Of a stretch of DNA of 38,886 bases, positions 22,659 to 35,021 are shown one piece after another. The stretch is taken from assembly GCA_012728655.1 (NCBI GenBank), contig JAAYEQ010000024.1, forward strand, positions 1 through 38,886. The letters are read 5' to 3'. The notes beneath the pieces are model-generated. The model had not been told where the DNA came from, ran no database searches, and saw only the letters and a list, made by a program, of their open reading frames with translations. Position numbers and translations under genes: made by a program. The stretch is from Syntrophomonadaceae bacterium. GTDB taxonomy: Bacteria > Bacillota > Syntrophomonadia > Syntrophomonadales > DTU052. Each line of letters starts with the position of its first letter. The first letter of the stretch is position 1.

Positions 22659-23261
22659 TTGTGCAAGGACATGTCACCGGTGGAAGCGGCGATTCAATTT
22701 CACGGCCATATATGCCCGGGCCTGTTGATGGGCGTGCGGGTGGCGGAATTTGCCCTGAATAAGTTGGGGGTCGGCCCGGATGTGAACGAGGAACTTGTGG
22801 CAGTGGTGGAGACCGATTCCTGCGGGGTGGATGCAATACAGGCCATACTGGGATGTACTTTCGGCAAGGGCAACCTGATCTTCAAGGACTATGGCAAAAA
22901 CGTTTACACGATTGCCAGCCGGGAAAATGGACAGGCGATCCGTATTGCCCAGAAGTTCAGGAGCAGTCACACTCCGGAGTCACAGCGGTACCGGGAGTTG
23001 GTCCGCAAGGGCTCGCTGACCGAGGCCGAGGCCGCGGAAAAAGAGGAATTGATTGGGCTGCTGTTTGAGCAGTTGATGAGTACGCCCTTTGAAGAACTGT
23101 TTGATTGGAAGGAAATCGATTTCGAATTTCCACCTAAAGCCAGGATGCATGCCACCGTTCAGTGCGTCCTTTGCGGTGAAGGGGTTACTGATATTAAAGC
23201 AACTGAAACCGCCCAGGGTCCGGTCTGTCCCGGCTGCCTGGCGGAGAATGGGGGTCGGTAA
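22659..23261 (+). CDS. FmdE-family protein with C-terminal zinc ribbon
   Basis: The 200-residue protein has the FmdE domain: FHGHICPGLLMGVRVAEFAL (residues 14-33; H15, H17 and C19 are the conserved metal-site residues), then VVETDSCGVDAIQAILGCTFGKGNL with two more conserved Cys. The C-terminal part is a short zinc ribbon with CVLCGEG and VCPGCLAE. FmdE was named for a gene beside tungsten formylmethanofuran dehydrogenase. In bacteria it is often found near molybdenum/tungsten enzymes, and its role is unsettled. The TTG at 22659 has GGTGG 8 bases upstream; ATG 22671 is an alternative. It sits between DUF3842 and CooT genes, just before a Moco-type riboswitch, which fits a pterin-cofactor connection. 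Confidence 0.9.
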   Translation: MCKDMSPVEAAIQFHGHICPGLLMGVRVAEFALNKLGVGPDVNEELVAVVETDSCGVDAIQAILGCTFGKGNLIFKDYGKNVYTIASRENGQAIRIAQKFRSSHTPESQRYRELVRKGSLTEAEAAEKEELIGLLFEQLMSTPFEELFDWKEIDFEFPPKARMHATVQCVLCGEGVTDIKATETAQGPVCPGCLAENGGR

Positions 23262-23262
23262 C

Positions 23263-24066
23263 TTGTGTGAGTCCAATGTATATTTGAATCGCGCCGGACG
23301 TGAAGAACTGTTGATGGAGCGCGTTGATAGGATCATACCGGCCGAAGACGGCAGTATTTTTCTGGAGAGCGTGTTTGGAGAACGCCGGGTGGTCAAAGCC
23401 CGCATCGTGGAAATGGAACTGGTACGCCACCGCATTGTGCTGGAAGAAACTCCTGAGGCCATGGTTGCTGAGCGAATCCAGGAGATATGGCTGGAGCCGG
23501 CCACCGATCACGGCCATTTCCATGAGGGAGAGGAAGTAATCCTTCGAGTATTCAAGGGTTACAATATGAAACCGGGAGACGGATTTTCCCGGGATGGCCT
23601 GGAAGCGTTTGCAGTTGCCGAAGGTGTAAAGCGCGCGGTTCCGGTACAGGAACGACAGGGAAGCCTGGAGATCAATCTGGGGCAGGAAGCCGACGGCCTG
23701 CTGCAGGTATATGTTCGGCAGCAGGGCGAACATGAACTGTACGGCAAAGTTGTCCTGGAGATCGGCCATCACCACCATCACGGCCTGCAGCCCCTGGGCC
23801 TGCCGCTGGAAATCGTTCCCGCCGGTTACAGCCATGCGCGGTTGGGAGAAAACTACGAGTTCCAGGTTTTGGCTGCGGGTGAACCGGTGGCGGGATTGGA
23901 GGTCAAGGCTACTTATGCCGGCACCCATCACCGCGACTATCCCCATCGTCTGAGGACTGACGACAACGGCCGGGCCAGGATATTCCTGACCGCCCGGGGC
24001 AATTACTTGTTCTCCGTAACCCATAAGAATATTACCAGCACTTTTACCCTGGTTAAGAGTTATTAA
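23263..24066 (+). CDS. CooT domain fused to a DUF4198-like domain with internal His5 run
   Basis: The 267-residue protein starts at TTG 23263, one base after the FmdE stop. It gives Met-Cys-Glu, the characteristic CooT N-terminus whose Cys2 binds nickel in the Rhodospirillum protein. Residues 1-65 match CooT (CESNVYL, ELLMERVDRIIP, VFGERRVVKARIVEMELVRHRIVLEE). Residues about 70-267 resemble DUF4198, a beta-rich domain linked to nickel/cobalt uptake systems: EGEEVILRVFKGYNMKPGDG and a C-terminal Ig-like part with PVAGLEVKATY and RTDDNGRARIFL. Histidines cluster at 83, 85 and 87, at 169-173 (five in a row) and in THHRDYPHR. There is no signal peptide or membrane helix, so it is cytoplasmic. A nickel chaperone or store for the hydrogenase is the likeliest role (inference). 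I know of no described protein with this architecture. Confidence 0.85.
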   Translation: MCESNVYLNRAGREELLMERVDRIIPAEDGSIFLESVFGERRVVKARIVEMELVRHRIVLEETPEAMVAERIQEIWLEPATDHGHFHEGEEVILRVFKGYNMKPGDGFSRDGLEAFAVAEGVKRAVPVQERQGSLEINLGQEADGLLQVYVRQQGEHELYGKVVLEIGHHHHHGLQPLGLPLEIVPAGYSHARLGENYEFQVLAAGEPVAGLEVKATYAGTHHRDYPHRLRTDDNGRARIFLTARGNYLFSVTHKNITSTFTLVKSY

Positions 24067-24159: not shown

Positions 24160-24275
24160 CAGAATATCCATCTCCGAGCCTGGAGGTCTGCAGGCGCGAG
24201 GCGCTATGAGCTTCAGGCCGGGGTATACCGGGAAACGGGTATGCCTTCCATTGCGAAAAGGAGATGCTGAAGTGA
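24160..24275 (+). promoter_or_regulatory. Moco/Tuco (molybdenum/tungsten cofactor) riboswitch aptamer
   Basis: The stretch matches the Moco RNA motif by eye. P1 is formed by CATCTCC (24169-24175) and GGAGATG (24260-24266). Inside are the conserved CCGAGCCTGGAGG (24174-24186), a GCCTG/CAGGC stem (24178-24182 with 24214-24218), a GAAA-capped helix ending CCGGGAAACGGG (24228-24239), and GCCTTCCATTGCGAAAAGGAG (24243-24263), the hallmark 3' side. An intrinsic terminator lies 60 bases downstream, and hypA begins after it. A weak promoter (TTGAGT 24103-24108, TTTATA 24127-24132) may start transcription. Known examples control molybdate transport, Moco synthesis and Mo/W enzymes; control of a [NiFe] hydrogenase operon would be unusual. 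Whether molybdenum or tungsten cofactor is sensed cannot be decided here. Confidence 0.87.
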
Positions 24276-24329
24276 ACACCGGATAAACATGTCCACATCG
24301 GATGCAGTTTTTATTCTGGGTTCGTAGAT

Positions 24330-24357
24330 GTCCGGCATTCTTTTCGCCGGACTTTTT
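24330..24357 (+). terminator. Intrinsic terminator, expression platform of the riboswitch
   Basis: GTCCGGC (24330-24336) pairs with GCCGGAC (24346-24352) around a 9-base loop, followed by five T. It lies between the aptamer and the hypA ribosome site. CCGGAT at 24279-24284 could pair with GTCCGG of the left arm as an antiterminator, so ligand-dependent termination is plausible. Confidence 0.85.
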
Positions 24358-24379
24358 GATCGGGGTCGAGGTGTCCGCC

Positions 24380-24733
24380 ATGCATGAGTTTGCTTTGATT
24401 GAAGGGATTATAGGAATCGTTCGTGATAGTGCCCTACAGAATAATATTCGCAAAGTGGAGCGGATTAAGCTGGTGGTGGGCAAGCTCTCCATGGCTTTAC
24501 CCGAAAGTTTGCAGTTTGCTTTTGAAGCCTTCAAAGCCGAAGAAGAATTGTTCCATCACGCAGTCCTGGAAATCGAGGAAAAAGAAATAGTATGCAGTTG
24601 CGGGCAGTGCAACCGGTCTTTTGCAGTGGAAGACAGCGTAAGCTTTATATGTCCCTGGTGCGCCTCCGGCAGTGTTGAGATTATTCAGGGTCGGGAACTG
24701 TATATTGACTGTTACGAAGGAGAGGAATGCTGA
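24380..24733 (+). CDS. hypA: Hydrogenase nickel insertion protein HypA
   Basis: The 117-residue protein begins MHEFALIEGIIGIV; His2 and the following Glu bind nickel in HypA proteins. The zinc domain is visible as CSCGQC and FICPWC separated by about 13 residues. RIKLVVGKLSMALPESLQFAFEAF is the conserved central helix region. HypA delivers nickel with HypB to the hydrogenase large subunit. The ATG at 24380 is chosen because it gives His2 and has GAGGTG 6 bases upstream; a longer in-frame reading would run back through the terminator. The stop overlaps the start of hypB. It is the first gene behind the Moco-type riboswitch. Confidence 0.95.
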   Translation: MHEFALIEGIIGIVRDSALQNNIRKVERIKLVVGKLSMALPESLQFAFEAFKAEEELFHHAVLEIEEKEIVCSCGQCNRSFAVEDSVSFICPWCASGSVEIIQGRELYIDCYEGEEC

Positions 24734-25395
24734 TGGTACAGGTTCGCATGGAAGCCAGCATCCTGGGAGCCAATGACCTCCTGGCCCGCAAAAACCGCGG
24801 TATATTTGCCCGCCAGGGGACGCTGGTCGTTAACTTGATGAGCTCACCCGGTTCGGGCAAGACCACTGTGCTGGAGAGGAGTATTGACTATTTGCACGAC
24901 CGGCTCCGCCTGGGAGTTATCGAAGGAGACCTGTATACCGATCAAGATGCCCGTCGCATTGAGAAAAAAGGAGTCCCGGTAAAGCAGATCAATACCGAAG
25001 GAGCCTGTCACCTGGATGCAAAGATGGTGGGCGAGGCTTTCGAGAGCATCGGTGAAAAACTGGACCTGCTTTTTATTGAGAACGTCGGCAACCTGGTGTG
25101 CCCGGCCGAGTTTGACCTGGGTGAAGATTTCAAAGCGGTGGTTATGAGCACCACCGAAGGCAACGACAAACCCTCCAAGTATCCCCTAGTATTTCGTGAG
25201 GCCCGGGTGGTCCTGCTGAACAAGATCGATCTTCTGCCGTTCACCGACTTCAGCGTTGAGCAGTTCCGGGAGGATGTGGCAAAGATCAACCCCCACGCGC
25301 CGGTGTTCATGGTGTCCGGTCGTACCGGCGAGGGATTTGAGGCATGGATTGAATGGCTTTTGGAGGAGGTGAGGAAAAAAAGAGCTGAGGCATAA
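24727..25395 (+). CDS. hypB: Hydrogenase nickel incorporation GTPase HypB
   Basis: The 222-residue GTPase works with HypA in nickel insertion. It carries the P-loop SSPGSGKTT (residues about 39-47), the metal-site segment GACHLDAKMV (about 97-106) with the invariant Cys-His, NVGNLVCPAEFDLGE (about 119-133), and the guanine-specificity motif NKID. The N-terminus lacks both the CxxCGC motif and the histidine-rich stretch that store nickel in many HypB proteins. The His-rich CooT-DUF4198 protein upstream may supply this function (inference). Overlapping in-frame starts at 24727 and 24733 both fit GGAGAGGA. The gene overlaps hypA, and 69 bases follow before the hydrogenase small subunit. Confidence 0.96.
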   Translation: MLMVQVRMEASILGANDLLARKNRGIFARQGTLVVNLMSSPGSGKTTVLERSIDYLHDRLRLGVIEGDLYTDQDARRIEKKGVPVKQINTEGACHLDAKMVGEAFESIGEKLDLLFIENVGNLVCPAEFDLGEDFKAVVMSTTEGNDKPSKYPLVFREARVVLLNKIDLLPFTDFSVEQFREDVAKINPHAPVFMVSGRTGEGFEAWIEWLLEEVRKKRAEA

Positions 25396-25464
25396 ATGAG
25401 CTGTTAAGGAATCACATTCGAGTAATGCCAGAATTGAAACTAACAGTTGGGGAGGGAATATAAA

Positions 25465-26529
25465 GTGTCTACCAAACTGAGTCGGCGCGAATTTCTCAAA
25501 ATGTGTGCGGGTTCAGCGGCGGCTATATCCCTGGCGGGATATCTGGCTCCCTTCATGAAGGAAGCGGTTGCAGCAGGTGCGCCACCGGTAATTTGGATCC
25601 AGGGAGCATCATGTACGGGATGTTCGGTATCGTTGCTCAATACGGTTCACCCTGATATTAAAGAGGTACTGACCAAGGTTATAAGCCTGACGTATCATCC
25701 GAACATCAGCGCTGCCGCCGGGGATCTGGCTATCAAGGAAGCCATTTATAAGGTGGCGGAAACCAATCCGAAGAACTTCTTCCTGGTGGTGGAGGGCGCA
25801 GTTCCTATGGGTGCCGATGGGCTCTACTGCACGGTGGGTGAGGAAGGCCATGAGCCGCTGGTATTCAAGAAGCTCCTTACCGACATCGGCAGCAAGGCCA
25901 AAGCGATATTGAACTTCGGTACCTGTTCCGCTTATGGCGGCGTTCCTGCTACCGACCCCAATCCTACCGATTGCAAACCGGTATCTGCGGTAGTAAAGAA
26001 CGTCCCCTTGGTCAACGTGCCCGGCTGTCCACCTCATCCCGATTGGATGGTGGGGACCATTGCCCATGTGCTTCTTTATGGAGATATTCCTGAATTAGAC
26101 GCGTTTGGGCGTCCCAAGATGTTTTTCGAAAAGATCGTTCATGACAACTGCCAGAGAAGGCAGTACTTCGACAATGCTATATTTGCCAAGACCTTCGGTG
26201 AGATGGGCTGCATGCTGGAATTGGGATGCAAAGGTCCGTTTGCCCACTGTGATGCCATGAACCGCATGTGGAACCAAGGTAACAACTGGTGCGTCGGATG
26301 CGGCGGAGTATGTATCGGCTGTACTGAACCGCAGTTTCCAGGCTGGCCGATGTACGAGAGACTACCGGAAATGCCGGTTGGACCGGCAACTGCAGTTACT
26401 GCCGACCAAATCGGCATAGTGCTGGGCGCAGCCACAGCCCTTGGCATTGCCGGGCATCTGGCCGGTAACGTATTGACCGGCAGGATCGGTCCCAAAAAGG
26501 CAGACAAATCTAAGGAAGGTGAGGCATAA
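25465..26529 (+). CDS. hyaA: [NiFe] hydrogenase small subunit, Tat-exported, membrane-anchored
   Basis: The protein has 354 residues from GTG 25465, which has GGGAGG 9 bases upstream. A twin-arginine signal LSRREFLKMCAG is followed by a hydrophobic stretch and AVAAG, so the folded dimer is exported. Iron-sulfur ligands are visible. The proximal cluster has SCTGCS, NFGTCSAYGG and VPGCPPHP. The distal site has VHDNCQRR and MGCMLELGCKGPFAHC, and the medial one NWCVGCGGVCIGC. The first motif is CTGC, not the CTCC of oxygen-tolerant enzymes, so a standard oxygen-sensitive type is expected. A C-terminal helix (IGIVLGAATALGIAGHLAG) anchors it to the membrane next to the cytochrome b. The stop overlaps the large-subunit ATG (TAATG). 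It couples hydrogen at the outer face to quinones. Confidence 0.95.
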   Translation: MSTKLSRREFLKMCAGSAAAISLAGYLAPFMKEAVAAGAPPVIWIQGASCTGCSVSLLNTVHPDIKEVLTKVISLTYHPNISAAAGDLAIKEAIYKVAETNPKNFFLVVEGAVPMGADGLYCTVGEEGHEPLVFKKLLTDIGSKAKAILNFGTCSAYGGVPATDPNPTDCKPVSAVVKNVPLVNVPGCPPHPDWMVGTIAHVLLYGDIPELDAFGRPKMFFEKIVHDNCQRRQYFDNAIFAKTFGEMGCMLELGCKGPFAHCDAMNRMWNQGNNWCVGCGGVCIGCTEPQFPGWPMYERLPEMPVGPATAVTADQIGIVLGAATALGIAGHLAGNVLTGRIGPKKADKSKEGEA

Positions 26530-27983
26530 TGGCAAAGATCATAGTTGATCCGGTAACCAGAATAGAAGGCCACCTTAAACTCGAGGTAGAAGTCGAGAAC
26601 AATGTGGTGGTGGATGCCTGGACCGGCGGTACCCTGTGGCGTGGTTTCGAGCTGATTTTACAGGGACGGGATGCACGTGACGCCCAACAGCTTGTGCAGC
26701 GTATCTGCGGGGTCTGCCCTGTATCTCATGCGACTGCCGGCGCTATGGCTTTGGACGATGCCATGGGGATTGAACCCCCGCCTAACGGACGCATCATCAG
26801 AAACCTGATTCTGGGCTCCAACTATATGCATTCGCATATCCTCCATTTCTTCCACCTGGCAGCCCTTGATTATGTAAAGGGACCGGATATAGCGCCTTTC
26901 AAACCTCGCTATGAGGCTGATTATCGTTTGCCGGCCGATATTAATGCCCAGGCGGTGGACATCTATCTGGAGGCCTTGACCATCAGGCGCAAAGCCCACG
27001 AAATGGGAGCCATTTGGGGAGGCAGGTTGCCGCATGTGCAGTCCATCGTGCCCGGCGGGGTCTCGGAGGTTCCGGACACCTCCAAGATCTACAAGTTTTT
27101 AAACTATCTCGAAGAGATACAGGCCTTTATAGATAACAAGTATATTCCTCTGGTAAAGACGGTGGCCGAGTATTATTCCGACTGGTTTTCCATCGGTACC
27201 GGCTGCCAGAACTTCCTGTGCTACGGAAGCTTCCCCCTGGAGGAAGGCCGGGACCATGTGAAAAAGAAAAAGTTTTGGGACAGCGGAATTTACCTTCGCG
27301 GGCAGTACAGGGAACTTGATCCCGCGGTGATTACCGAAGAAGTAACCTATTCGTGGTACGAAGATGATACCGACGGCAATACCCCCGATGTGGCGGTGGT
27401 AACTCCCAATGCCAAGAAGAAGGGAGCCTATTCCTGGCTTAAGTCACCGCGCTATAACGGAGAAGCCATGGAAGTAGGACCTCTGGCCCGCCAGTGGGTT
27501 AACAAGAATCCCGATGTATTGGCCCTGGGCGATAAAGCCTTTTCCGTGATGGGGCGTCACTTTGCCCGCGCGGTAGAAGCTTCTCAGCTTGCCAAGGCCA
27601 TGAAGGAATGGGTTCTGCAGCTTGAACCGGGACAACCGGTATGCACGCCTCATGAACTGCCCAAAAAAGAAGTGGTGGGAGTCGGACTCTGTGAAGGGTC
27701 CCGCGGTGCACTGGGACACTGGCACCGTATCAGCGCCGATGGGCGGACCAAGGTTTACAATGCAGTGGTACCTACCACCTGGAATTCCGGACCCCGGACC
27801 GGCAGCGGAGCGGCCACCGTACGCGGCCCCATGGAGCAGGCCATTATCGGAACCAGGGTGGCGGATCCCGCCAATCCTGTAGAACTGGTCAGAATCGTTC
27901 GGTCCTTTGACCCGTGCTATGGTTGTGCCATCCATGTTATGACTCCTAATGGGAAGACTTTGAGCCAGTTTGTCGTCAGTTAG
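26529..27983 (+). CDS. hyaB: [NiFe] hydrogenase large (catalytic) subunit
   Basis: The 484-residue protein carries the Ni-Fe active site. The N-terminal ligand motif RICGVCPVSHA supplies C60 and C63; the C-terminal motif DPCYGCAIH supplies C463 and C466. The chain continues 15 residues past H469, so it needs cleavage by the endopeptidase encoded three genes downstream. Other typical segments are DPVTRIEGHLKLEVEV at the start, GGTLWRGFELILQGRDARDA (about 33-52) and GSRGALGHWHRI (about 390-401). It crosses the membrane with the small subunit by the Tat route, having no signal of its own. It belongs to the membrane-bound group 1 uptake enzymes. In a fermentative or syntrophic anaerobe the enzyme could also evolve hydrogen from quinol. 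Confidence 0.97.
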   Translation: MAKIIVDPVTRIEGHLKLEVEVENNVVVDAWTGGTLWRGFELILQGRDARDAQQLVQRICGVCPVSHATAGAMALDDAMGIEPPPNGRIIRNLILGSNYMHSHILHFFHLAALDYVKGPDIAPFKPRYEADYRLPADINAQAVDIYLEALTIRRKAHEMGAIWGGRLPHVQSIVPGGVSEVPDTSKIYKFLNYLEEIQAFIDNKYIPLVKTVAEYYSDWFSIGTGCQNFLCYGSFPLEEGRDHVKKKKFWDSGIYLRGQYRELDPAVITEEVTYSWYEDDTDGNTPDVAVVTPNAKKKGAYSWLKSPRYNGEAMEVGPLARQWVNKNPDVLALGDKAFSVMGRHFARAVEASQLAKAMKEWVLQLEPGQPVCTPHELPKKEVVGVGLCEGSRGALGHWHRISADGRTKVYNAVVPTTWNSGPRTGSGAATVRGPMEQAIIGTRVADPANPVELVRIVRSFDPCYGCAIHVMTPNGKTLSQFVVS

Positions 27984-27994
27984 GGGGTGCACTG

Positions 27995-28612
27995 ATGATT
28001 AAAAAGATGAAGGAGCGGCATTCTATTTGGATCCGGATATTTCACTGGACCAATATGATTGCCATCATCATGTTGATACTGACCGGCTTTTATATCCATG
28101 CACCTCAGAGCTTCAAGTTGTTCAGCAGCATGGACACGGCCCGGACCATACACTTTGCCATGGCTTACGTTCTGACGTTCGGAGTCATAGGAAGGGTCTA
28201 CTATGCCATCGTGGCCAAGGACGCCAAGAACATCGTATACCGGCCCATAGAAGATACCAAAAAGCTGCCCAGCATGCTCAAGTATTATCTGTTTCTGGCT
28301 GATGATCACCCTTACTATGGGAAGTACAATCCTGGACAGAAGGGGATGTATACCGCCTGGCTGGTTATGGCCATACTGATGATCATCACCGGATTCATCC
28401 TTTACAAGCCCCATCTTTTCCTCGGCTTGTCGGGCTTGTTAGGCGGATTTTTGGTCGTTCGCATTATCCACTATGCAATAAACTGGCTGTTTGTAATTAC
28501 GATTATGGTACACGTGTACCTGGATATCGCCGAGGGCATCCCCATCCTGAAATCGATGTTTACCGGAAAGATCCCGGAGGATTTTCATCACGGTTACCAT
28601 GAGGAGAGTTAG
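27995..28612 (+). CDS. hyaC: Hydrogenase cytochrome b subunit (HyaC type)
   Basis: The 205-residue membrane protein has four helices: about 16-35 (IRIFHWTNMIAIIMLILTG), 48-68 (IHFAMAYVLTFGVIGRVYY), 112-133 (AWLVMAILMIITGFILY) and 150-175 (IIHYAINWLFVITIMVHVYLD). Histidines in HW, IHF, IIHY and MVHVY are placed to bind two b-type haems. It carries electrons between the hydrogenase small subunit and membrane quinone. The ATG at 27995 is 12 bases after the large-subunit stop, within the operon, with GGGGG as the ribosome site. Haem b and a quinone pool are therefore implied for this organism. Confidence 0.94.
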   Translation: MIKKMKERHSIWIRIFHWTNMIAIIMLILTGFYIHAPQSFKLFSSMDTARTIHFAMAYVLTFGVIGRVYYAIVAKDAKNIVYRPIEDTKKLPSMLKYYLFLADDHPYYGKYNPGQKGMYTAWLVMAILMIITGFILYKPHLFLGLSGLLGGFLVVRIIHYAINWLFVITIMVHVYLDIAEGIPILKSMFTGKIPEDFHHGYHEES

Positions 28613-28624
28613 GGAGGGCCCAGT

Positions 28625-29086
28625 GTGAAAAGGATAACGGTGTTGGGAATCGGCAATCTGTTGATGCAGGACGACGGGGTAGGTGTGCATGTCATCAGGC
28701 ACCTCCAACAGCGAGAGCTGCCCCCGGAGGTTAAACTGATTGACGGTGGAACTTACTCCTACGACCTGATGGACTTTATCATTGAGGCCGACACCTGTAT
28801 TGTTGTTGATGCCATGCGTGGCGGGGGGGAACCGGGCACCATCTACCGGGCACCCTTTGATGAACTGGAAGTGAAACCCGACACCGACGCCGTTTCTCTG
28901 CACGAAATGAGCCTGGTGGAAGCCGTATATCTGTTGCGTTTGGAAGGACATGATCCCGACATCATAGTCTACGGTGTGGAACCGCATACGGTATCCTTTG
29001 GACTCGAGTTGACCGACGCCGTTGCCCGGCAGGTTCCGCGAGTGGCGGACATGATTGAGCAGGATATTAAATCATTGTTGTCGTAA
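28625..29086 (+). CDS. hyaD: Hydrogenase maturation endopeptidase (HyaD/HybD type)
   Basis: The 153-residue cytoplasmic protease removes the C-terminal extension of the large subunit after nickel insertion. The start GTG 28625 follows GGGAGG. The opening VLGIGNLLMQDDGVGVHVIRHL is typical; Asp17 stands where HybD of E. coli has the nickel-binding Glu16, as in many anaerobe homologues. The other metal-binding positions are the Asp in VVDAMRGG and the His in SLHEMSL. It is the last gene before the paired hairpins, so it probably ends the structural operon. Confidence 0.93.
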   Translation: MKRITVLGIGNLLMQDDGVGVHVIRHLQQRELPPEVKLIDGGTYSYDLMDFIIEADTCIVVDAMRGGGEPGTIYRAPFDELEVKPDTDAVSLHEMSLVEAVYLLRLEGHDPDIIVYGVEPHTVSFGLELTDAVARQVPRVADMIEQDIKSLLS

Positions 29087-29126: not shown

Positions 29127-29159
29127 GCCCGCCGGTTTAACAGTGATTGACCGGCGGGC
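29127..29159 (+). terminator. Hairpin after the hydrogenase structural genes (terminator-like)
   Basis: GCCCGCCGGT (29127-29136) pairs perfectly with ACCGGCGGGC (29150-29159) around 13 bases. Only AATGGGGTTTT follows, so it may be a leaky terminator or an mRNA-stabilising 3' end rather than a strong stop. Confidence 0.55.
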
Positions 29160-29180
29160 AATGGGGTTTTCCGAATTTGG

Positions 29181-29226
29181 GGGTGGGTTGCAGAAACGAT
29201 TGCTAATCGCTGTCTGCAACCCACCC
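29181..29226. repeat. Long near-perfect palindrome before hypF
   Basis: GGGTGGGTTGCAGA (29181-29194) is exactly complementary to 29213-29226. The 18 bases between contain a second small hairpin (CGATT/AATCG). The whole forms a 46-base stem-loop between hyaD and hypF. No T tract follows, and it may be an RNA processing or stability element or a small mobile repeat. Confidence 0.7.
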
Positions 29227-29310
29227 TTGAAATATGAGATAATATATAAGCATCGAGTATCAAAAAACAGCAATAATAGATCAACCGGATTTGTACTTGA
29301 GCGGGACAGG

Positions 29311-31581
29311 ATGCATGATATGAGCGTTAAAGCCTACAGCGTTAAACTTAACGGCATCGTCCAGGGGGTGGGATTCAGACCTCATGTCTACCGCCTGGCG
29401 GTGGAATACAACTTGAAAGGATGGGTAATCAATTCATCCGCCGGAGTTATTCTGGAGGTGGAGGGTGAGGAGGAAGACCTGCATGAATTCTTGCGCCGCC
29501 TGCAGAATGAGCCCCCTCCCCGAGCGGTTATCCGCAGTTGTGAGATGCGGGAAATCCCCGTGCACGGCTTTACCGGCTTTACCATCAGACCCAGCGACGA
29601 TGCCGGGAAGACCACCGCCATGATATCTCCCGATATCGCCGTATGCCAGGAATGCAAAAAGGAAACCGACGACCCCAATGACCGGCGCTATCGTTATCCT
29701 TTTACCAACTGTACCAATTGCGGTCCCCGCTTTACCATTATCAAAGGCCTGCCTTATGACCGGGCTATGACCACCATGGCCAAATTCACCATGTGCCCGG
29801 ATTGCCAGGCTGAATTTGATGACCCCGGTAACCGGCGGTTTCATGCCCAACCCAATGCCTGCCCGGTTTGCGGGCCCCGCATTACTCTGGTGGATTCCCA
29901 TGGGGTTCCGGTTAACCGGGAGGTCCGCGACCTGCTTAAGTCCGGTTATATAGTCGCGGTAAAGGGGCTGGGAGGTTTCCATCTGGCCGTCAATGCCCTG
30001 GATGCCGAGGCGGTGATGCGGCTGCGTCAGCGCAAGCGGCGCGATGCCAAGCCTTTCGCGGTCATGGTCCGTGATCTGGCGACGGCGCATCAGCACTGCA
30101 TCATCAGTGCCGGGGAGGAGGAACTGCTAACTTCTCCAGCCGCGCCGATAGTGATTCTGCAAAGGAGAGAAGACAGCCCCCTGCCGGCGGAAGCCATTCA
30201 TCCCGGACTGAAGACCCTGGGGGTCATGTTGCCCTATACTCCACTGCACTACCTGCTGTTTGACGATGAACTGAGGGTGCTGATAATGACCAGCGCCAAC
30301 ATCAGCGATGAACCGCTGATTACTGTGAACGAGGAGGCTTTGGATAAACTGGGGGCGGTGGCGGATTTCTTCCTCCTGCATAACCGGGACATCTACAACC
30401 CCTGTGACGACTCCGTAGTACAGCTTACCAAAGGCAGGACGATTCACTTTATGCGCCGGGCGCGGGGATATGTGCCGGAGGGGATACCGCTGGGGCGGCC
30501 GGTTCTGCCGGTACTGGCGTTGGGAGGAGAAATGAAGAACACCTTCTGCATTACCCGCGGAAATGATGCGTTTTTAAGCCAGCACTGGGGCGACCTTAAC
30601 CATTACCAAAACTATGTCAACTTCCTGCAGGGGATTGAACGCTTTAAAGCATCTCTGGAGGTGGAACCGGAGGCGCTGGCTCATGACCTGCATCCCGACT
30701 ACCAGACCACTCGTTGGGCCAAGGAGCAGAAGGATATTCGTCGGGTGGAGGTCCAGCATCATCACGCTCACATGGCCTCGGTCATGGCGGAGAACGACCT
30801 GCAGGGAGAAGTCCTGGGCTTAATTTGTGACGGCTCCGGGTGGGGAACCGACGGTACCGTATGGGGAGGAGAGATCCTGCGGGGCGACTTCCTCCGTTTT
30901 GAGCGGGTGGCACACCTGAGAACCCTGCCCCTGCCGGGGGGAGATTTGGCGGCCCGTCGGCCTTATCGCATGGCCCTGGTTTACCTGCTGCTGGCATTGG
31001 GAGAACCGGGACTTGAATGGGCGGATCGCCTCCTGCCCGATCTGAAGCCTGGGGAAAAAGAACTGATGCTGCAGCGGTTAAGGAGCGGCAGTGAACCCCT
31101 TACCTCCTCCTGTGGCCGCCTGTTTGATGCGGTGGCGGCGGTCCTGGGGATCTGCGGGATAAACAGGTATGAGGGGCAGGCGGCGGTGGAACTGGAGGCC
31201 TGTGCCGATCCCGGTGAAAAGGGGAGCTATGGATTTGCTTTGGAAAAACAGGGGGATCGCTGGGTAATGGATGTTATGCCCATGTGGTCCGAATTGATAG
31301 CGGATATAAAAAGTGCGTTGAGGCCGGAGAGCATGGCGATGAAGTTCCATCTCACCCTGGTGCGGATGTTTGAGGCGACCCTGCTCAAGCTCAGGGATGA
31401 GACCGGCTTAAATCGGGTAGTCCTGAGCGGTGGGGTCTTCCACAATCAGATATTACTGGATAATATGCTTGAACGGCTGACCAACCGGGGGTTCATGGTC
31501 TATCACCACCAGAAGGTTCCACCGGGTGACGGAGGCCTATCGCTGGGGCAGGCTGTTATCGCAAGTGAGGTGGGAGGATAA
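29311..31581 (+). CDS. hypF: Carbamoyltransferase HypF
   Basis: The 756-residue enzyme makes the thiocarboxamide on HypE from carbamoyl phosphate, the first step toward the cyanide ligands. The acylphosphatase domain is at the N-terminus (GIVQGVGFRPHVYRLA). Two zinc fingers follow (CQECKKE...CTNC and CPDCQAE...CPVC), then a YrdC-like domain (VAVKGLGGFHLAVNA, KPFAVMVRD) and a Kae1-like domain with QHHHAHMASV and CDGSGWGTDGTVWGGE. The starts ATG 29311 and 29320 both suit; an open reading frame extending to 29143 would run through the hairpin and lacks family sequence. Its stop overlaps the hypC start (TAATG). Confidence 0.95.
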   Translation: MHDMSVKAYSVKLNGIVQGVGFRPHVYRLAVEYNLKGWVINSSAGVILEVEGEEEDLHEFLRRLQNEPPPRAVIRSCEMREIPVHGFTGFTIRPSDDAGKTTAMISPDIAVCQECKKETDDPNDRRYRYPFTNCTNCGPRFTIIKGLPYDRAMTTMAKFTMCPDCQAEFDDPGNRRFHAQPNACPVCGPRITLVDSHGVPVNREVRDLLKSGYIVAVKGLGGFHLAVNALDAEAVMRLRQRKRRDAKPFAVMVRDLATAHQHCIISAGEEELLTSPAAPIVILQRREDSPLPAEAIHPGLKTLGVMLPYTPLHYLLFDDELRVLIMTSANISDEPLITVNEEALDKLGAVADFFLLHNRDIYNPCDDSVVQLTKGRTIHFMRRARGYVPEGIPLGRPVLPVLALGGEMKNTFCITRGNDAFLSQHWGDLNHYQNYVNFLQGIERFKASLEVEPEALAHDLHPDYQTTRWAKEQKDIRRVEVQHHHAHMASVMAENDLQGEVLGLICDGSGWGTDGTVWGGEILRGDFLRFERVAHLRTLPLPGGDLAARRPYRMALVYLLLALGEPGLEWADRLLPDLKPGEKELMLQRLRSGSEPLTSSCGRLFDAVAAVLGICGINRYEGQAAVELEACADPGEKGSYGFALEKQGDRWVMDVMPMWSELIADIKSALRPESMAMKFHLTLVRMFEATLLKLRDETGLNRVVLSGGVFHNQILLDNMLERLTNRGFMVYHHQKVPPGDGGLSLGQAVIASEVGG

Positions 31582-31808
31582 TGTGTCTCGGAGTACCGGG
31601 CAGGATAATTGAGATGAAAGAAAACTATAGGGCGATCGTGGACGTAAACGGCAACCGGATGGAGATAAGTGTCAGACTCACCCCGGAGGTTCAGGTGGGA
31701 CAGTACGTGCTCATCCACGCCGGGTTTGCCATGGAGATCATCGACGAGGATGCAGCCCGGGAGACCATGCAGCTTTTGCTGGAGGTAATGGAATATGGCC
31801 AGTTATAG
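31581..31808 (+). CDS. hypC: Hydrogenase assembly chaperone HypC
   Basis: The 75-residue protein starts MCLGVPGRI. Cys2 is the residue that holds the Fe(CN)2CO unit together with HypD and contacts the large subunit precursor. QVGQYVLIHAGFAMEIIDEDAA is the usual second half. The ATG overlaps the hypF stop, and the gene overlaps hypD by 14 bases, a coupled arrangement. Confidence 0.96.
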   Translation: MCLGVPGRIIEMKENYRAIVDVNGNRMEISVRLTPEVQVGQYVLIHAGFAMEIIDEDAARETMQLLLEVMEYGQL

Positions 31809-32871
31809 CCAGAGGCTGCTGCAGGTGATAAGATCCACCAACCGGGAAATCTCCCTGATGGAGGTATGCGGTACCCATACCATGGCCATCGCCCGCAGCG
31901 GGATCCGGGAACTGCTGCCCCCCAATATCAGACTCCTTTCCGGTCCGGGCTGTCCGGTTTGTGTCACCAGCCAGGGGGACATCGACTCCGTGATCGAGAT
32001 GGTGCGGAGAGAGGAGGTTATCCTCCTTACCTTCGGTGACATGATGAGGGTACCGGGTACCCGGAGCAGCCTGCAGGAGGAGCGCAGCCGGGGCGCGGAT
32101 GTGCGGGTGGTTTATTCGCCCCTGGAAGCCTTGAAGATAGCTGAGAATAATCCGGACCGGGAGGTGGTCTTCCTGGGGATCGGCTTTGAAACCACCGTCC
32201 CAACGGTTGCGGTCACCCTGGAGGAGGCCCGGGAAGCCGGATTACACAACTTTTCGCTTTTTTCTCTCCATAAGCTGGTCCCCCCGGCTTTGGAGCTCAT
32301 AATGTCCGATCCTGAGATCAGGGTTGACGGTCTGATATGCCCCGGTCATGTGACCGCGGTTACCGGGCTGCGACCCTACGAAACGCTGGCGCATAAGTAC
32401 GGAAAGCCCTGCGTCGTTACCGGGTTTGAAGCGGTGGATATACTGGAGGGCATTGTAATGCTGATCCACCAATTGCAGAACTCCACGGCCAGGGCGGAGA
32501 TCCAGTATAAGCGGGTGGTTAAGCCGGAGGGCAACCCGGCGGCGATGGATGCTATCTGGCGGGTTTTTGAAACCGCCCCCTCTCGGTGGCGCGGGCTGGG
32601 CATGATCCCGGACAGCGGCCTGCAGTTGAGAGATGAATATGCCGCCATGGACGCCCGCCGAAAATTCAACTTGCCGGAAATGGAGGATATTCCGATTAAA
32701 GGTTGCATCTGCGGAGCGGTATTAACCGGTAAAAAGATTCCTACTGATTGTGCCCTGTTCGGGCGGAGCTGTACTCCCCTGGAGCCGGTAGGTCCCTGCA
32801 TGGTGTCCCAAGAGGGAGCCTGTGCTGCGTATTACCGTTATACACCGGGGAAAAGGAAGGTGCTTGAATGA
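31795..32871 (+). CDS. hypD: Hydrogenase iron-cofactor assembly protein HypD
   Basis: The 358-residue iron-sulfur protein is the scaffold on which iron receives its cyanide and CO ligands. It shows EVCGTHTMAIARSGI (about 23-37), GPGCPVCVTSQGDID (about 50-64) with the catalytic cysteine pair, GFETTVP (about 128-134), PGHVTAVTG (about 183-191), and the [4Fe-4S] region GCICGAVLTGKKIPTDCALF near the C-terminus. It overlaps hypC at the front and hypE at the back (ATGA), so HypC, D and E are made together. Confidence 0.96.
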   Translation: MASYSQRLLQVIRSTNREISLMEVCGTHTMAIARSGIRELLPPNIRLLSGPGCPVCVTSQGDIDSVIEMVRREEVILLTFGDMMRVPGTRSSLQEERSRGADVRVVYSPLEALKIAENNPDREVVFLGIGFETTVPTVAVTLEEAREAGLHNFSLFSLHKLVPPALELIMSDPEIRVDGLICPGHVTAVTGLRPYETLAHKYGKPCVVTGFEAVDILEGIVMLIHQLQNSTARAEIQYKRVVKPEGNPAAMDAIWRVFETAPSRWRGLGMIPDSGLQLRDEYAAMDARRKFNLPEMEDIPIKGCICGAVLTGKKIPTDCALFGRSCTPLEPVGPCMVSQEGACAAYYRYTPGKRKVLE

Positions 32872-33878
32872 AGAATGAGCGTATCTTGATGGCCCATGGC
32901 AGCGGCGGACGGATGAGCCAGCAGTTAATTAAGGAGGTATTTCAAGCCGCCTGGAACAATGAGATCATGGAGAGCATGCTGGATGGGGCCGTATTCGACT
33001 TGGGGACAGGTCGGCTGGCCATGTCGACGGATTCCTTCGTCATCACCCCTTTATTCTTCCCCGGAGGGGATATCGGCAAGCTCGCCGTCTGCGGGACGGT
33101 TAACGACCTGATCGCCTGCGGAGCCCGGCCTGTTTACCTTTCTGCGGCCTTCATCATCGAAGAGGGCCTGCCCATATCCGACCTCAGGAGAATTGCCCGG
33201 TCCATGGCGGAAACTGCCATGGAATGCGGGGTTAAGCTGGTTACCGGGGATACCAAAGTGGTGGAAAGAGGCAAGGCGGACGGGGTGTATATAAACACCA
33301 CCGGCATCGGACTGATCCCGGAGGGGATTGACTACCGGCCTGCACGAATCAAACCGGGGGATAAGGTTATCGTGACCGGCCAGGTTGGCGACCATGGTTT
33401 GGCCATCCTGGCGCAGCGGGAGGGGCTGAGCTTCGGCACCCCCGCGTTAAGCGACTGCGCCCCTCTTGTCGGGCTGGAAGGGATTATGAACCGCTACGGC
33501 GGCAGCATCAGGTGCATGCGTGATCCCACCCGGGGCGGACTGGCCACAGCGCTCAACGAAATTGCGGCTCAGTCCGGGCGGGGTATCAGGGTCCGGGAAG
33601 CCGATATCCCGATATCGCCGGTGGTACAGGGAGCATGCGACATGCTGGGGATGGATCCCCTATACATGGCCAATGAGGGCAAGATGATAATCTTTGCGGC
33701 TTCTGAATGCGCTGCCGATATATTAAGCGATCTGCGCCGCCTCCCGGGGATGGAAAATGCGGCCGTCATCGGTTCGGTTATTCCGGAACCTGCCGGGATG
33801 GTCCTGATTGAAACCGAACTGGGAGCGGACCGGATACTGGGAATCCTGGAAGGCGAACACATTCCCCGCATTTGCTAA
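32868..33878 (+). CDS. hypE: Carbamoyl dehydratase HypE
   Basis: The 336-residue enzyme converts the carbamoyl group on its own C-terminal cysteine to thiocyanate using ATP, then gives cyanide to iron on HypC-HypD. The chain ends HIPRIC, the required Pro-Arg-Ile-Cys tail. The AIR-synthase/PurM-like fold is visible in LMAHGSGGRMSQQLI at the start, AMSTDSFVITPLFFPGGDIGKLAVCGTVNDL (about 51-81), and MRDPTRGGLATALNEIA (about 218-234). It is the last gene of the hypFCDE cluster. No clear terminator directly follows. Confidence 0.97.
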   Translation: MKNERILMAHGSGGRMSQQLIKEVFQAAWNNEIMESMLDGAVFDLGTGRLAMSTDSFVITPLFFPGGDIGKLAVCGTVNDLIACGARPVYLSAAFIIEEGLPISDLRRIARSMAETAMECGVKLVTGDTKVVERGKADGVYINTTGIGLIPEGIDYRPARIKPGDKVIVTGQVGDHGLAILAQREGLSFGTPALSDCAPLVGLEGIMNRYGGSIRCMRDPTRGGLATALNEIAAQSGRGIRVREADIPISPVVQGACDMLGMDPLYMANEGKMIIFAASECAADILSDLRRLPGMENAAVIGSVIPEPAGMVLIETELGADRILGILEGEHIPRIC

Positions 33879-34946: not shown

Positions 34947-35021
34947 TGGGGCGTCGCCAAGCGGTAAGGCACGGGACTCTGACTCCCGCATTCGTGGGTT
35001 CGAATCCTACCGCCCCAGCCA
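34947..35021 (+). tRNA. tRNA-Gln (anticodon CUG)
   Basis: The 75-base cloverleaf has acceptor TGGGGCG pairing with CGCCCCA, discriminator G and an encoded CCA (35019-35021). The anticodon stem is CGGGA/TCCCG (34972-34976, 34984-34988), with loop CTCTGAC and anticodon CTG at 34979-34981. The T arm is GTGGG-TTCGAAT-CCTAC. It is a single-gene transcription unit flanked by its own promoter and terminator. Confidence 0.97.

Follow-up and report, generated by a model that had tools for sequence, protein, structure and literature searches.

The stretch of DNA analysed here (the window, 38,886 nt of contig JAAYEQ010000024.1 from a Syntrophomonadaceae bacterium) carries a [NiFe] hydrogenase operon with a structured RNA in front of its first gene (Table 1). 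NCBIfam and Pfam models gave the gene order of the preliminary description, which had placed hypA first, followed by hypB and the hydrogenase genes, and carried it through hypE. The large and small subunits with Ni ligands, the Tat signal on the small subunit and the cytochrome b are group-1-like traits, and the nearest solved relatives of the large subunit are periplasmic [NiFeSe] hydrogenases, e.g. 5jsu. The large subunit of the window has Cys, which excludes a selenocysteine-containing NiFeSe enzyme. Because of the Tat-type signal and the Cys motif in which the large subunit ends, the enzyme is classed as an exported, group-1-like nickel-iron hydrogenase without selenocysteine, probably linked to quinones. 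Upstream lie an fmdE-like gene and a CooT+DUF4198 gene, which neighbour the operon in many relatives and are possibly co-transcribed with it. A tRNA gene (RF00005, 59.9 bits) was found downstream of hypE, at 34947-35018.

Table 1. Features of the hydrogenase locus, in coordinates of the window.
Feature	Position	Strand	Evidence or remark
fmdE-like gene, CooT+DUF4198 gene	22659-24066	+	PF02663, PF10133, PF10670
Moco/Tuco riboswitch aptamer (RF01055), P3-less	24160-24279	+	cmscan, Rfam 15
P1 5′ strand, CAUCUCC	24169-24175	+	pairs with 24260-24266; sequence and constrained fold
P1 3′ strand, GGAGAUG	24260-24266	+	overlaps antiterminator left strand (24263-24269)
Antiterminator left strand, GAUGCUG	24263-24269	+	pairs with 24333-24339 (CGGCAUU)
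Intrinsic terminator	24330-24357	+	stem 24330-24336/24346-24352, U-run 24353-24357; dG -12.1
hypA (nickel metallochaperone)	24380-24733	+	PF01155, 102.8 bits; TIGR00100, 80.4 bits, just below the cut-off of 88.1
hypB	24727-25395	+	TIGR00073, 273.6 bits
[NiFe] hydrogenase small subunit, Tat-type RREFLK signal	25447-26529	+	TIGR00391, 275 bits
[NiFe] hydrogenase large subunit, Cys ligands (DPCYGCAIHV), no Sec	26529-27983	+	NF033181, 655.8 bits
Hydrogenase b-type cytochrome	27995-28612	+	TIGR02125, 153.3 bits
Hydrogenase maturation protease	28625-29086	+	TIGR00072, 146 bits
hypF	29143-31581	+	TIGR00143, 793.4 bits
hypC	31581-31799	+	TIGR00074, 84.7 bits, cut-off 48
hypD	31795-32871	+	TIGR00075, 472.3 bits
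hypE	32868-33878	+	TIGR02124, 445.6 bits

A covariance search with Rfam 15 (cmscan) matched the RNA to RF01055 at 61.8 bits, against a gathering threshold of 36 (E 1.2e-12), and the match covers the model completely (1-135). The Moco-type aptamer proposed from the bare sequence was thus recovered at full length, with its P1 as a perfect 7-bp helix (CATCTCC/GGAGATG in the DNA) and the conserved blocks CCGAGCC, GGGAAAC and TCCATTGCGAAAAGGAG in place. The aptamer alignment also has a GNRA-type P4 tetraloop (GGAAAC) and a CCGAG / AAAGGAG core. When the Moco RNAs of 30 relatives were aligned, 15 of the 22 consensus pairs showed compensatory changes, and the core of P1 was invariant or compensated throughout. 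The operon itself, which comprises HypA-F and a [NiFe] hydrogenase, lies outside the classical Moco regulon of genes that make, import or use the cofactor.

The model positions of P3, the helix by which the preliminary description proposed to distinguish Moco from Tuco RNAs, are all gaps in the cmscan alignment, so that the RNA is of the P3-less type tied by Regulski et al. (PMC2408646) to the tungsten cofactor. Because P3 is missing, the ligand is probably the tungsten form, an assignment of Tuco over Moco that is taken wholly from the correlation with P3 that Regulski et al. reported in 2008 (PMC2408646). It is also possible, if on the doubtful side, that the ligand is Moco instead of Tuco, or that both are sensed, and that the absence of P3 is no determinant of specificity. 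Indeed, P3-based specificity was inferred in the founding study from the correlation with gene context alone, neither ligand binding nor selectivity for the tungsten over the molybdenum cofactor having been shown directly, and the E. coli RNA from which P3 had been deleted lost regulation instead of switching (PMC2408646). Against a molybdenum ligand stand the hypA-linked RNAs of the order, all of which lack P3 (117-124 nt in length), and the tungsten-related genes of the organism: another Moco RNA of the source genome precedes TupABC-like tungstate transporter genes (L007), for which NF041772 (TupA) and NF041773 (TupB) were the best models, both with scores below the curated cut-offs. This transporter and the formate dehydrogenase (FDH)/moeA operon, which are under the genome's other Moco RNAs, are consistent with the use of tungsten.

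The intrinsic terminator that had been read between the aptamer and hypA is present, with a GTCCGGC/GCCGGAC stem followed by U5, and homologous terminators that covary precede hypA in almost all relatives. This hairpin was missing from the output of a generic consensus terminator scan because its 9-nt loop exceeds the limit of that scan. Since just 22 nt separate the U-run from the start of hypA, the sequence makes a promoter for hypA beyond the terminator unlikely. A sigma-70 consensus scan found no promoter upstream, and the Moco RNA may have a promoter of its own or be transcribed from fmdE/cooT.

In every readable hypA leader, the 5′ arm of the terminator reads GGCAUUUC, or a near variant, into the loop, and the loop sequence (GGCAUUUC/GGCAUCUC) is kept in relatives although a terminator alone does not need such conservation. 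The 3′ strand of P1 (GAGAUGC) is complementary to GGCAUUUC, that is, to the terminator 5′ arm and loop. Over 23 aligned leaders, 176 of the 183 cells of this pairing (96%) are standard pairs, while sliding the strands by 1-4 columns gave at most 52%, and when leaders were folded up to the terminator loop the minimum free energy (MFE) structure used the antiterminator in 20 of the 23. In the window, all seven positions of the antiterminator pair, two of them as G-U, and the unconstrained MFE fold of 24160-24362 is the antiterminator fold (-80.7 kcal/mol versus -76.1 for P1 plus terminator). The window and its near-identical sister genome (G003) are nonetheless two of the exceptions in which the fold ending at the loop prefers P1. 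The window's antiterminator is weaker than those of its relatives, with AUUCU instead of AUUUC in the terminator loop, and 19% of shuffled arms equal or exceed its pairing. We therefore built the case for the platform on the relatives, the pairing energies of the window being unconvincing alone; as the 3′ strand of P1 hardly varies and leaves little room for antiterminator covariation, that case consists of conserved complementarity and the slid controls.

P1 and the antiterminator draw on the same bases and are thus mutually exclusive, and for this reason the platform is predicted to act as a transcriptional OFF switch that allows expression of the hydrogenase when the cofactor is scarce. We regard as improbable the opposite sense, in which cofactor binding promotes the hydrogenase in step with an active FDH, e.g. 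for formate/H2 interconversion. A cell with sufficient cofactor might want both enzymes together, some terminator-bearing riboswitches are ON switches, and the preference of the window for P1 in the fold ending at the loop would suit such a switch, but the strand freed by the opening of P1 complements the terminator 5′ arm across the 23 sequences, which is the usual OFF arrangement, and no conserved anti-antiterminator was found in the leaders. An OFF response to the cofactor is also that of the E. coli moaA RNA, as established with a reporter (PMC2408646), and RNA-seq suggests that this RNA can modulate termination (PMC12121620). The E. coli RNA belongs to the same aptamer class as that of the window; however, it has P3, controls Moco synthesis, and its P1 overlaps the ribosome binding site.

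The HypA of the window was searched against 63 genomes of the order, and we examined 35 HypA loci from 34 genomes with Rfam and with R1, a covariance model made from 30 related RNAs; the close named relatives are MAGs labelled Syntrophothermus, Syntrophomonas and Syntrophomonadaceae. A Moco RNA was found upstream of hypA and on the same strand in 26 of the 34 genomes of the order that have a homologous hypA, usually at a distance of 100-190 nt and with otherwise the same gene order around it. The association first noted in the window is thus no accident of one genome but is kept across a bacterial order. By family, it occurs in all five genomes of f1, in 21 genomes of f2 and in none of the four of f3. 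The other exceptions are genus g19 (G026, G028 and G043), with a rearranged operon in which hydS comes first and has no RNA in front, and G029, where hypAB stands without hydrogenase genes beside it. The leaders before hypA are longer or masked in G001, G017 and G018, and in G060 the Moco RNA is cut by the contig end. Tandem copies occur in several genomes, among them G004, G033, G034, G036 and G050. At L085:1232-2059 (G001:C119), repeated Moco RNA copies, partly N-masked, lie between a full RNA and hypA. Another locus, L099:4792-9913 (G029:C151), has four Moco RNAs around hypAB together with genes for an oxyanion-binding protein and an FDH-like protein; the two just upstream of hypA face away from it, and hydrogenase structural genes were not found in this island.

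The order is rich in Moco RNAs and a strong gene pair lies upstream in the window, so that the RNA might be only one of many that came to stand before hypA by chance or hitch-hiking, or might serve fmdE/cooT. Either is hardly credible. Since a genome of 2-4 Mb has roughly 5-15 Moco RNAs, the chance of one at hypA is below about 0.001 in a single genome; chance placement is excluded by conservation in 26 genomes, in which the terminator and antiterminator are moreover adapted to the RNA. The fmdE/cooT genes, for their part, share the strand of the RNA but precede it on the 5′ side, which excludes them as its target, and in some relatives 3-4 kb of CbiM/CbiQ/CbiO-like genes stand between. At L090:2427-6941, where such ECF transporter genes separate the fmdE/CooT genes from the Moco RNA, they probably serve nickel or cobalt uptake.

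Outside the order, we sampled the 40 genomes with the nearest HypA. Moco RNAs were present in 31 of them and stood upstream of hypA in one (G137), which excludes a general link between Moco RNAs and hypA across the phylum. G137 belongs to a second family, f63, and in another member, G206, a Moco RNA separates hypB from hydS and immediately precedes the structural genes. The same hydrogenase operon has thus gained a Moco RNA at two positions in this family, which argues that the hydrogenase as such is the target; hypA alone is an unlikely one, given the RNA before hydS. In family f30, an RNA of a different class (TwoAYGGAY, RF01731, 46.3 bits) shares the strand of hypA and lies upstream of it at a distance of about 120 nt (L128:475-632, minus strand; G089:C76).

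The source genome holds five matches to RF01055, four of them above the cut-off. A tandem pair precedes the FDH/moeA operon on contig C30 (L008), and its weaker member is the sub-threshold match, at 35.4 bits (L008:10257-12297; G000:C30). The FDH alpha gene of this operon is split, with an in-frame TGA, and is followed by moeA; selenocysteine plus a frameshift or assembly error is a possible explanation. The best match of the genome, at 80.8 bits, is an orphan (L006:4711-4830; G000:C36:9710-9829): it is followed by a terminator complementary to its own P1 3′ strand, but not by a gene in the same orientation, the next one being convergent and coding for a SpoIIE-domain protein. This RNA is kept in the sister genome G003 (L027); it may be a leader in the course of decay or an RNA that stands alone.

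The preliminary description had proposed that the RNA lets the cell switch between FDH and hydrogenase for electron disposal. The hydrogenase side of this proposal stood, in that an operon switched off when the cofactor is plentiful fits an alternative electron route. A reciprocal switch, with the ligand turning FDH on and the hydrogenase off in the same cell, we consider unlikely: the hydrogenase platform predicts OFF as such a switch would have it, but in the FDH-linked Moco RNAs of the order the terminator 5′ arm contains CUCCU (or CCUUUCC), a stretch that the 3′ strand of P1 complements, and those of C30 and of related genomes look like OFF switches too. Several of these loci were read by eye, as the automatic terminator search had taken the wrong hairpins. 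The genes for FDHs on contigs C44 and C73 lie near none of the Moco RNAs of the genome and these enzymes could simply depend on tungsten for activity; because such RNA-free FDH genes exist beside the riboswitch-linked one, a toggle through cofactor-dependent FDH activity, rather than expression, is possible. On the simplest reading of the sequences, the nickel hydrogenase is part of a cofactor-scarcity regulon, together with a tungstate importer, moeA and one FDH. A different hydrogenase is preceded by a Moco RNA in G023 (L164:4829-8687; G023:C105, minus strand), where a longer, apparently P3-bearing RNA stands before a trimeric [FeFe] hydrogenase (NuoE/NuoF/HydA), and the terminator GATCTTCTT of this RNA perfectly complements its P1 3′ strand AAGAAGATC. 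As this genome also has a hyp-linked P3-less RNA, the P3-less RNA at the [NiFe] and the P3-bearing one at the [FeFe] HydABC hydrogenase could provide separate W and Mo inputs.

Taken together, we consider it likely that a transcription-terminating OFF riboswitch of the Moco/Tuco class controls the hypAB-hydSL-cytb-protease-hypFCDE operon. When the cofactor is plentiful, its free form would bind the aptamer and close P1, the terminator would fold, and transcription would stop before hypA. When it is scarce, the 3′ strand of P1 would pair instead with the 5′ arm of the terminator, and the resulting antiterminator would let the whole operon from hypA to hypE be transcribed. A shortage of W/Mo cofactor would thus lead to production of the nickel hydrogenase, a membrane-linked enzyme, together with the nickel/iron factors for its assembly; in this genome the same shortage would also switch on tungstate uptake and one FDH/moeA operon. 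Electrons could then leave as H2, or be drawn from H2, without reliance on W/Mo enzymes.

The RNA agrees with the Moco/Tuco class (RF01055; PMC2408646) in aptamer structure, conserved blocks, P3-less subtype, terminator-type platform and predicted OFF logic, and the class was also described as occurring in tandem copies in Syntrophomonas relatives. What differs is the target: an operon for a [NiFe] hydrogenase and its Hyp maturation proteins, for which neither Mo nor W nor pterin is required. Hydrogenase, hypA and nickel go unmentioned in the 2008 survey (PMC2408646). The apparent S. wolfei-like complete genome of our set has no such hypA, so that the survey could not have met this target there. 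That known members regulate Mo/W genes, as the preliminary description held, is nearly right: the exception is Eubacterium limosum, for which the available part of a 2017 report places a Moco RNA before a "hydrogenase complex" and proposes that FDH and hydrogenase are balanced through the cofactor (PMC5651825). That part of the report concerns a single species, leaves the hydrogenase type unstated and contains no hyp genes and no analysis of platform or conservation, whereas the association described here involves a [NiFe] operon with hypA-F, 26 genomes as well as a family outside the order, and a readable, putatively OFF platform. No report of an association between Moco RNAs and [NiFe]/hyp genes was found in the literature within reach of our search, outside which most subscription journals fell. 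We therefore regard the RNA class as known and its [NiFe]/hyp target as apparently new, conserved and surprising, with a mechanism that can be read from the leaders.

Exchange of metalloenzyme isoforms in response to tungsten or molybdenum is familiar, e.g. from the FDHs of Desulfovibrio (cited in PMC5651825). There, as in the case proposed here, metal availability picks between enzymes of equivalent function; however, that exchange is between Mo and W enzymes, while here W/Mo enzymes would give way to a Ni enzyme by means of an RNA. We propose tentatively, the case being almost balanced, that wherever hydrogenases lie under Moco/Tuco RNAs, in Syntrophomonadaceae-like genomes and in the second family, the supply of W/Mo cofactor sets electron disposal. 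Syntrophic cells would then choose, with a comparable degree of doubt, at the level of a riboswitch whether to use redox enzymes that depend on W/Mo or ones that depend on Ni or Fe.

Either H2 or formate carries the electrons of syntrophic fatty-acid degraders to methanogens, which raises the question of how the choice is made. The leaders suggest that syntrophic cells probably make the nickel hydrogenase when the tungsten or molybdenum cofactor is short, and a conserved RNA that ties the cofactor supply of the formate route to this enzyme makes the question testable through tungstate and molybdate. If true, the known reach of the Moco/Tuco class would extend beyond cofactor-related genes, to an enzyme that serves as a substitute and works with another metal, and the finding would be relevant to trace-metal dosing in anaerobic digesters.
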